The notes beneath the pieces are model-generated. The model saw only the letters and a program-made list of their open reading frames with translations, made no database searches and was not told the origin of the DNA. From NCBI RefSeq assembly GCF_000724625.1, contig NZ_CP007139.1, positions 3,162,001-3,226,000 on the forward strand: a stretch of 64,000 bases of DNA, given 5' to 3'. Origin of the DNA: Fimbriimonas ginsengisoli Gsoil 348 (GTDB lineage: Bacteria; Armatimonadota; Fimbriimonadia; Fimbriimonadales; Fimbriimonadaceae). Within the stretch, counting starts at the first letter, position 1. The number at the start of each line of letters is the position of its first letter. The translations under genes were made by a program, and so were the position numbers. Shown in pieces: positions 56,858 to 58,554 of this stretch.

Positions 56858-57649
56858 TCAGGACTTCTTGGCTCGTTCTTCGCGGGCGGTGTGGCGTTGT
56901 TTTTGCCAGTAGTAGTCGGCGGGTTTTTCGCGGGGGGTGGCGGGGAGGCCGCCCATCATGATCCAGGCTCGCCGCGGGATGTCGGAGACGTTTCCCGGAG
57001 CGTAGTGGAGGGTTCGCTGGTGGTGGATGGTGCAGCCACCGGCGCGAAGCGGCGCGCCGACGGCGCCGCTGAGGTCGAGATTGAATGCCGGGTCGAGCTC
57101 CAGGCCGTGGACTCGGGGGTCGTTACCGATCGGCCGGTGGGGGTGGATTTCCGATTTGTGGGAACCGGGGACGAAGTGCATGCATCCGGAGGCGGCGTCT
57201 ACGTCTTGGAGCGGCATCCAGATACTTAGGGAGGTGTAGTCGAGCGCGGGGTCCCAATACGCTTCGTCTTGATGCCAAGGGGTCGGCGAGCCGTAGCGGG
57301 CCGGTTTGAGAATCGCGTGGTCGCCTCGTCCGGCTCCTTCCTGTCCCCAAAGCTGCGCCATGATCGCGCCGCCGTTCGCCCAAGCGAGGGTTTCCAGCAT
57401 TTCGGGAGCGTATTGGCTGGGACCCAAGATTTGGGGCAGCTTCGCGGTTTCTCCCTCTTCGTCGGCGCCGGCGAGGTCGAACTGATCCCCTTTTTCGCGG
57501 CCCGCCCGCTCGGAGAAGAGTCGGTCGTAGATCTGGCGAAGATTTTCGAGTTCGTCGGGAGTCGAAATCTGGTCCAGCACCAGGTACCCGTTCTCGTGAT
57601 AAAAGTGGATCTGCTCGTCGGTGAGTCGGATCGTCGGTTCAATCGGCAT
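56858..57649 (-). CDS. Phytanoyl-CoA dioxygenase-family protein
   Basis: A 263-residue Fe(II)/2-oxoglutarate oxygenase. PTPWHQDEAYWDP carries the first His and Asp of the iron triad, CTIHHQRTLHYAPGNVSDIPRRAW the distal His and the 2-oxoglutarate-binding Arg. The substrate is unknown; family members hydroxylate lipids, ectoine or secondary metabolites. ATG 57649 has TAACCT 6 bases upstream (57656-57661), in the 28-bp gap to the divergent gene at 57678. Confidence 0.93.
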   Translation of the reverse strand: MPIEPTIRLTDEQIHFYHENGYLVLDQISTPDELENLRQIYDRLFSERAGREKGDQFDLAGADEEGETAKLPQILGPSQYAPEMLETLAWANGGAIMAQLWGQEGAGRGDHAILKPARYGSPTPWHQDEAYWDPALDYTSLSIWMPLQDVDAASGCMHFVPGSHKSEIHPHRPIGNDPRVHGLELDPAFNLDLSGAVGAPLRAGGCTIHHQRTLHYAPGNVSDIPRRAWIMMGGLPATPREKPADYYWQKQRHTAREERAKKS

Positions 57650-57677
57650 GAACCTAGGTTAATCTAATCGAGGATCT

Positions 57678-58070
57678 ATGCCAACCATTCGTACGATCGA
57701 CGAAACCGCCGCCGGCGCCAAGGTCGAGGGGCCTTCGTTGCAACTCGATCGCGACGAGATGACGGTGCGCGACCTGATCGCGCTGCGGGTTCGAGAAGAG
57801 GTGCGCCGATACAACCGCGACCGGCCGGAGAAGTACTACGGCTTGGTCCAGCCAACCGACGTGGAGACGATGTTGAACGGGCCCGCGGCCCGGCGTTTCC
57901 AACTGGTCGACGCCGACCACCAAGTACAGGTTGCCCTGAAGGCGTTTCGCGATCAGCGTTTCATCGTGCTCTTGCCGGATGGCCAAGCGGAATCGCTGGA
58001 GGACCGGGCGCAATTCTTCGAAGGGGACCAAGTGAGTTTTCTCCGACTGGTGCCGCTGGTTGGTGGCTAA
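57678..58070 (+). CDS. Small beta-grasp-like protein ending in Gly-Gly
   Basis: A 130-residue protein not assigned to a named family by me. The C-terminal part (FIVLLPDGQAESL...FEGDQVSFLRLVPLVGG, stop directly after the two glycines) resembles the last strands and tail of MoaD/ThiS and other ubiquitin-like proteins, in which the terminal Gly-Gly is activated by an E1-like enzyme. The N-terminal half (MTVRDLIALRVREEVRRYNR) is helical. GAGG precedes the ATG. No E1, JAB peptidase or molybdopterin gene is nearby; the next gene is decayed. Confidence 0.75.
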   Translation: MPTIRTIDETAAGAKVEGPSLQLDRDEMTVRDLIALRVREEVRRYNRDRPEKYYGLVQPTDVETMLNGPAARRFQLVDADHQVQVALKAFRDQRFIVLLPDGQAESLEDRAQFFEGDQVSFLRLVPLVGG

Positions 58071-58072
58071 GA

Positions 58073-58554
58073 TTGAGCCTTTTCGACCGGGTTAAGAAGG
58101 CGATCGCAGGGTTCACTCCGGAAGTTGCGCGGAGTAGCGACCCATTGGACGCTGAGTTTCGTGCGGTCGATTGATTGCTGGACTTTTACTTGGCGATGGT
58201 CCCTCCCAATGCCGTTGGAGGGCAGTTCCTTATTCAACGTCTGGATCAATCGCGGCCAGAAGTTCGGCAAGTGTTGAGGGCTGAAGGCGAGGCCAGGGGG
58301 CGGATGGCGATCGCATTGATCGAACGTCGGAGGAATTTCCAGTCGACTGATTGGAGGGACTCTAGACCTTTCTACATAAGGCAGGATATCACCGGCATCG
58401 CCAGTTCTGAGAAAAGTGGTCGAAAGGGGCGCGGCCGCTCTACCTGCCGTTCGAGGGAGATGGTGTGCTGGCAATTATTCTCAGCAAGGCAATGATGCTG
58501 GCGAAGGACGACAAGATAACCGACGCCTCGATCGTGCACCAGATAAAGAGATAA
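58073..58554 (+). pseudogene. Decayed gene downstream of the Gly-Gly protein
   Basis: From TTG 58073 (LSLFDRVKKAIAGFTPEVAR) the frame meets TGA at 58172-58174, then continues sensibly (LLDFYLAMVPPNAVGGQFLI, EARGRMAIALIERRRNF). At the A-run 58412-58415 it must shift to read GARPLYLPFEGDGVLAIILS and ASIVHQIKR before TAA 58552-58554. Restoring one A and changing TGA to CGA gives one ~160-residue protein. Two independent lesions make true decay more likely than sequencing error. It could be the N-terminal remnant of a larger protein; family not recognised. Confidence 0.7.

Follow-up and report, generated by a model that had tools for sequence, protein, structure and literature searches.

Fimbriimonas ginsengisoli Gsoil 348 possesses an orphan gene for a 130-residue protein with a predicted ubiquitin/MoaD fold and a terminal Gly-Gly pair. 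It is the relic of a module in which this small ubiquitin-like (Ubl) protein is combined with a large DUF4132 protein, and its direct intact partner is missing. Both the identity of the Ubl protein and this history of partner loss in F. ginsengisoli are well supported. The family to which it belongs is unnamed and spans about ten bacterial phyla, Streptomyces included. The window analyzed here is a stretch of 64,000 nucleotides (contig NZ_CP007139.1, positions 3,162,001 to 3,226,000), and the following features are numbered from its first letter.

56858-57649, minus strand: phytanoyl-CoA-dioxygenase-like gene (position from the open reading frames, product named by reading the sequence)
57670-57673, plus strand: candidate ribosome-binding site GAGG of the Ubl gene, read off the sequence
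57678-58070, plus strand: Ubl gene, 130 aa, predicted ubiquitin/MoaD fold, terminal Gly-Gly (homologues, AF2 model and fold matches)
58032-58067, plus strand: C-terminal tail VSFLRLVPLVGG of the Ubl protein, its most conserved stretch
58073-58410, plus strand: probable relic of the partner gene's 5' portion (position, frame and weak collinear profile match)
58411-58554, plus strand: surviving 3' end of the partner gene, encoding the last part of DUF7737, with its stop codon (PF24879 match and identity to partners)

The Ubl gene and the remnant of its partner

The Ubl gene and the dioxygenase-like gene are arranged head-to-head with 28 nt between them; the latter is not counted within the Ubl module. 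A first-pass annotation of this DNA had described a 130-residue protein ending exactly in a Gly-Gly sequence, and the reading frame at 57678-58070 does end in VSFLRLVPLVGG. It had also remarked on the absence of molybdopterin and thiamin genes nearby, and none were seen around the Ubl gene. Whole-genome search (one contig, 5,231,762 bases) found the gene in single copy.

Downstream of the Ubl gene, an in-frame stop is present at 58172-58174 and the frame changes near 58411. The recognizable remainder of the partner consists of its last 36-38 residues, LYLPFEGDGVLAIILSKAMMLAKDDKITDASIVHQIKR, encoded at 58438-58551 and followed by the stop codon at 58552-58554. In comparisons with intact partners this stump mostly shows 60-71% identity (E 1e-10 to 4e-15), and it matches positions 59-103 of PF24879 (DUF7737) with E 6.4e-12. 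The distance from the Ubl stop codon to 58554 is about 484 nt as against about 2,460 nt in relatives, which indicates a large internal deletion of about 2 kb comprising all of DUF4132, beyond any point lesion. The downstream gene had been annotated as carrying a premature stop and a frameshift; it is indeed broken, but the damage was understated, and the stump of about 38 residues together with the large deletion rules out a gene that is merely frame-shifted. The segment 58073-58410 is collinear with the N-terminus of the partner (positions 23-81, E 0.0045, 4-sequence set). Since its BLAST similarity does not exceed that of shuffled controls (15 of 100 shuffles gave an equal score), we infer its origin from the partner.

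Profile search revealed no DUF4132 in the entire F. ginsengisoli genome. With the partner reduced to a C-terminal stump the Ubl protein is an orphan, and the module as such cannot work in this strain. The earlier suspicion that a two-gene or larger system had been lost was thus borne out: the partner was a DUF4132 and DUF7737 protein, and the nearest intact loci add an E1 gene. A second relic was found in the same genus (L141:354-560, genome G090), where a sequence resembling the start of a Ubl protein, PSIQVIDETTT, in another frame, runs nearly straight into the last ~36 residues of the partner. This larger collapse suggests that the module has probably been lost by internal deletion more than once.

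Family and predicted fold of the Ubl protein

Within the same family and order there are full-length homologues of 55-58% identity, while identity elsewhere in Armatimonadota is roughly 27-46%. The Ubl profile matched 24 of 291 Armatimonadota genomes (E<=1e-5), and together with the full-length homologues this shows that the reading frame does not exist by chance. To the distant relative L032, the window protein is 46.2% identical while the intact neighbours L030 and L031 are 38.5% and 34.6% identical; to L033, the corresponding values are 46.2%, 37.7% and 42.3%. Compared with its intact neighbours, the window protein has thus not drifted further from distant relatives, and it shows no accelerated decay.

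Searches assigned the window protein to no Pfam, NCBIfam, PADLOC or PDB sequence family. None of the 24 family members matched ThiS/MoaD in Pfam, and a single sub-threshold match to TIGR01687 was obtained for the family (E 0.065). PDB sequence matches to designed beta-trefoils (E >= 0.0038) were rejected, as no stretch passed alone and they contradict the predicted fold. Four candidate homologues (L049, L052, L053 and L054) were likewise discarded as chance matches, being unrelated proteins of wrong length in which the tail is absent.

The Ubl protein is predicted to be a beta-grasp (ubiquitin/MoaD-fold) protein. Its AF2 model, built from a 24-sequence alignment, has a mean pLDDT of 84.5 and a pTM of 0.79, and falls below 50 pLDDT only at residues 62-70, within an insert after the first helix. 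The modelled order of secondary structure elements is b-b-b-a-(insert)-a-b-b-b. The Foldseek list for this model was composed mostly of ubiquitin and SUMO with modest E values of about 0.01. In VIA, the model aligned with human MOCS2A (5mpo_A), a MoaD homologue, over 77 residues at 3.0 A with Z 8.0, and with NEDD8, HOIL-1 UBL and ubiquitin at Z about 7-7.7. Almost all top-ranked VIA rows were ubiquitin-fold proteins, at Z scores of 7-8 that are modest. The predicted fold is thus beta-grasp, which the first-pass annotation had named as a check; its likening of the protein to MoaD/ThiS holds by fold and fails by sequence-family profiles.

Conservation of the C-terminal tail

The Gly-Gly pair is terminal in all 91 Ubl loci with a short partner (group A). 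After removal of redundancy at 80%, these loci gave 38 sequences, in which tail residues 119-130 showed a mean column entropy of 0.64 bits compared to 1.65 for the remainder of the protein. F121, L124, L127, G129 and G130 are invariant among them. Members with a long partner end in GG in 11 of 16 cases, and the other five end in GA, GA, GL, SS and SGRLW. The conservation of Gly-Gly among homologues, proposed earlier as a check, was hence complete in the short-partner group and partial in the long-partner group. Those long-partner members which lack GG and have a visible neighbour still adjoin a DUF4132 gene, so at least at those loci pairing needs no Gly-Gly.

On a Bacteroides finegoldii plasmid (L152:638-1057) the Ubl protein extends past the usual end (LAMLSGRLW), and its gene is flanked by genes for a rhomboid protease and a DUF4132 protein. 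A divergent Armatimonadota member of 123 aa (L143:5946-6317, minus strand) has the tail ICFIRLYPLEEP without Gly-Gly; it directly precedes a reading frame resembling protein-L-isoaspartate methyltransferase, and DUF4132 is absent nearby.

Pairing with DUF4132-DUF7737 proteins across phyla

The partners fall in two size classes. The short form is an alpha-solenoid of about 750-1,130 aa with C-terminal DUF4132 (PF13569) and DUF7737 (PF24879), and the long form of about 1,600-1,740 aa has the organization DUF5724-DUF4132-DUF7737. Partners of the relatives match DUF4132 and DUF7737 well over cut-off. The model of one partner (825 aa, pLDDT 83.6) begins with an alpha-solenoid, behind which lies a half of mixed structure matching no recognized fold, and fold search with the whole partner returned generic helical-repeat matches only. 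Its invariant residues include Cys774 and His758 (numbering of the L031 partner) along with many tryptophan, arginine and aspartic acid residues.

The partner adjoins the Ubl gene in 94 of 101 distinct loci, downstream in 89 and upstream in five of planctomycete type; contig ends account for most of the seven loci without it. Where the partner is downstream, spacing mostly lies between a 3-nt overlap and a gap of about 50 nt. All 22 Armatimonadota genomes in which DUF7737 is strongly matched (E below 1e-25) carry the Ubl gene, which is found in only two of the remaining 269, namely F. ginsengisoli and the weak outlier L143 (Fisher p 4e-31, which serves as a guide only since the genomes are related). 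No Ubl gene was found in the surroundings of the divergent DUF7737 proteins L147, L148 and L149. Going by record titles, further members come from Actinomycetota, Planctomycetota, Verrucomicrobiota, Chloroflexota, Myxococcota and Gemmatimonadota. The family is present in Pseudomonadota, Deinococcota and Bacteroidota as well. Within one genus its distribution is patchy, with repeated loss.

Across these phyla no third gene recurs beside the pair, and no E2, JAB or rhodanese gene does so either; PADLOC gave no model match for the Ubl protein or the partner. Thioredoxin was considered as a linked neighbour and set aside as coincidence, being present at two loci only. Two loci, L032 (G010) and L142 (G216), have two tandem DUF4132-type genes beside one Ubl gene. 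In Streptomyces sp. WM6386 (L122:9389-9532) an intact Gly-Gly Ubl protein is accompanied by a partner cut to ~49 N-terminal residues, and the partner reading frames of the Streptomyces loci L085, L113 and L126 are not continuously open; these four broken partners could reflect either sequencing error or genuine decay.

E1 genes beside the Ubl gene

Genes matching the MoeB/ThiF profile of E1 enzymes lie near the Ubl gene in 3 of 110 loci (L031, L042 and L043), which are all three intact Ubl loci of the bacterial family represented in the window. There the E1 gene is head-to-head with the Ubl gene with start codons about 29-50 bp apart, the position occupied in F. ginsengisoli by the dioxygenase-like gene. 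The three adjacent E1s grouped in a single clade (support 0.996). Neither the phylum's MoeB-rhodanese enzymes nor the additional E1s that two of these genomes encode separately fell within it. The adjacent E1s have no rhodanese domain and retain the glycine-rich ATP loop, both CxxC pairs and a cysteine at the presumed E1 active-site position. Their presence in these loci supports C-terminal activation of the Ubl protein. F. ginsengisoli itself has a single E1, a MoeB-rhodanese enzyme encoded at 1.63 Mb, and none beside the Ubl gene. The neighbourhood survey suggested in the first-pass annotation, for E1-like, JAB or large downstream genes, therefore revealed the large partner at most loci and E1 genes at a few, and no recurring JAB gene.

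At another locus (L059:2738-3547, minus strand), a MoaD-like sequence ending in VIGAIAGG is convergent with the only E1 gene of its genome, a MoeB-rhodanese; the two are likely a housekeeping Ubl/E1 pair.

The Deinococcus member DR_A0165

In Deinococcus radiodurans the DUF4132 gene is DR_A0166, and the preceding DR_A0165 (SEP068184) matches the Ubl profile (E 3e-29, 46-sequence set) and has the tail LLLLRLTALAGG. A DdrO operator has been published for drA0165 (PMC8533742). It occurs without mismatch at L150:771-790, about 60 nt upstream of the DR_A0165 reading frame, and this exact copy ties the drA0165 name to the Ubl-family gene. A radiation/desiccation response motif (RDRM) at drA0165 has been denied (PMC9650054), in contradiction to PMC8533742 and to the sequence of L150. 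A copy of the DdrO operator with three mismatches precedes the D. psychrotolerans gene.

DRA0166 is raised by mitomycin C in an IrrE-dependent manner (PMC8533742), and DR_A0165 is induced by radiation and H2O2 (PMC9650054). Deletion of DR_A0165 increases resistance to H2O2 while its overexpression decreases it, the protein binds Trx1, and 157 proteins co-purify with both its N- and C-terminally tagged forms (PMC9650054). Its predicted fold was found to resemble MoaD/SAMP1, and the authors thought the protein to be restricted to Deinococcus (PMC9650054). Upstream of the Ubl genes of Streptomyces, Micromonospora, Armatimonadota and planctomycetes, known LexA-type, Alphaproteobacterial SOS and DdrO boxes were not clearly over background, so control by damage is demonstrated for Deinococcus only.

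Comparison with known systems

The module shares with MoaD, ThiS, SAMP and Urm1 the predicted ubiquitin fold, the pre-exposed C-terminal Gly-Gly and an available MoeB/ThiF-type E1, adjacent in three relatives. Unlike these proteins, the Ubl protein has no sequence-family match, has about 30 extra residues inserted behind the first helix and is accompanied by a constant large DUF4132 partner, with no cofactor-biosynthesis neighbours. DR_A0165 belongs to the same profile family and is likewise upstream of a DUF4132 gene, but its partner is intact and of the long DUF5724 type; its literature connects it neither with DUF4132 nor with Gly-Gly chemistry. The DUF4132 domain is shared by E. coli YehI/MolR, whereas yehI (L157, a plasmid record) has no Ubl gene beside it and is followed by a MoxR ATPase gene and a DUF5682 gene. 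BilABCD, CBASS Cap2/Cap3 and the polyUbl/E1/E2/JAB operons resemble the module in that one operon encodes a bacterial Ubl, an E1 or both. The Ubl loci have none of their E2, JAB or nucleotide second-messenger components, and their partner is a solenoid-DUF4132 protein. The combination by which Bil, polyUbl and CBASS loci are recognized, E1 with E2 and/or JAB in one operon, was not found as a recurring feature of the Ubl loci.

Possible function of the module

The explanation we favour, with a probability of about 0.5, is a stress-linked module of the Ubl protein and the DUF4132-DUF7737 solenoid in which the tail is used in an E1-dependent manner. The C-terminal glycine would be adenylated by a MoeB/ThiF-type E1, either the adjacent one in relatives of the Fimbriimonadaceae type or a housekeeping MoeB elsewhere in the genome. 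The charged or free tail may then pass to, or be inserted into, the solenoid's conserved C-terminal half, which could use it as a sulfur or acyl donor or convey the Ubl protein to target proteins. Such a module would work in stress physiology, which in Deinococcus means oxidative and DNA damage. The orphan of F. ginsengisoli may be heading for loss, or it may remain a substrate of the housekeeping MoeB-rhodanese. C-terminal activation is favoured by the existence of a dedicated E1 clade and by the invariance of Gly-Gly among short-partner members. Against it stand the restriction of E1 adjacency to a single family, the lack of a recurring E2, JAB or rhodanese gene, the missing fold match for the partner's C-terminal half and the recovery of the same 157 proteins with C-tagged DR_A0165, since neither conjugation nor sulfur loading would be expected of a protein whose C-terminus is blocked. 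The natural variants without Gly-Gly and this tag-insensitive interactome argue that long-partner members can do with docking alone. These observations give a possible, though less favoured, alternative: a non-covalent subunit which folds or regulates the solenoid and plugs into it by its hydrophobic tail, E1 chemistry playing no part and Gly-Gly being retained in the majority of lineages for packing. Translational coupling, typical of complex subunits, and the absence of a nearby E1 from 107 of 110 loci fit this view, in addition to the variants that retain their partner and the shared interactors of both tagged forms (PMC9650054). However, an unbroken Gly-Gly in group A across many phyla exceeds what packing is expected to need, and the nearest intact loci have a dedicated E1 head-to-head with the Ubl gene.

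The more specific readings are less probable, and two of them, sulfur transfer and conjugation, are versions of the favoured E1-dependent explanation, so that the confidences overlap. It is rather doubtful that the module constitutes a new phylum-spanning Ubl system, with its own E1 in some lineages and the DUF4132 solenoid as a new ligase or acceptor in the oxidative and DNA-damage response. A dedicated sulfur carrier, whose thiocarboxylate is made by E1 and used by the DUF4132 protein as MoaE does for MoaD, is suggested by MOCS2A among the top fold matches, by the MoeB/ThiF-type E1 in one family and by the sulfur-loading type of the only E1 of F. ginsengisoli, but appears unlikely given a large alpha-solenoid with no recognized MoaE-like or sulfur-inserting fold, adjacent E1s without rhodanese and no biosynthetic neighbours. 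Protein conjugation by a Urm1/SAMP-like modifier under oxidative stress, with the solenoid as ligase or adaptor, would suit the predicted fold with pre-exposed Gly-Gly and the stress induction and broad interactome in Deinococcus (PMC9650054); the lack of E2 and JAB genes beside the pair, the unchanged interactors of C-tagged DR_A0165 (PMC9650054) and the absence of reported conjugates make it quite improbable. An anti-phage defence module, gained and lost in the manner of defence genes, is very unlikely: the patchy occurrence and repeated loss within one genus point in this direction, whereas PADLOC matches neither protein, the flanks have no recurring gene and the studied member lies in a DNA-damage regulon and is linked to oxidative and DNA-damage stress, not phage (PMC8533742, PMC9650054).

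Implications for the family

In that part of the DUF4132 literature which was open to examination (subscription papers and preprints lay outside the search), no link between DUF4132 and a ubiquitin-like protein was found, and the literature searched within the same bounds did not mention DUF5724. The terms solenoid and HEAT are absent from a 2006 survey of prokaryotic ubiquitin-like operons. DUF4132/DUF7737 proteins, including their DUF5724 versions, thereby gain a constant small partner of predicted ubiquitin fold, and DR_A0165/SEP068184 is reinterpreted as one member of a family present in about ten phyla and in Streptomyces too. The F. ginsengisoli locus shows that the partner can disappear with the Ubl gene left intact.
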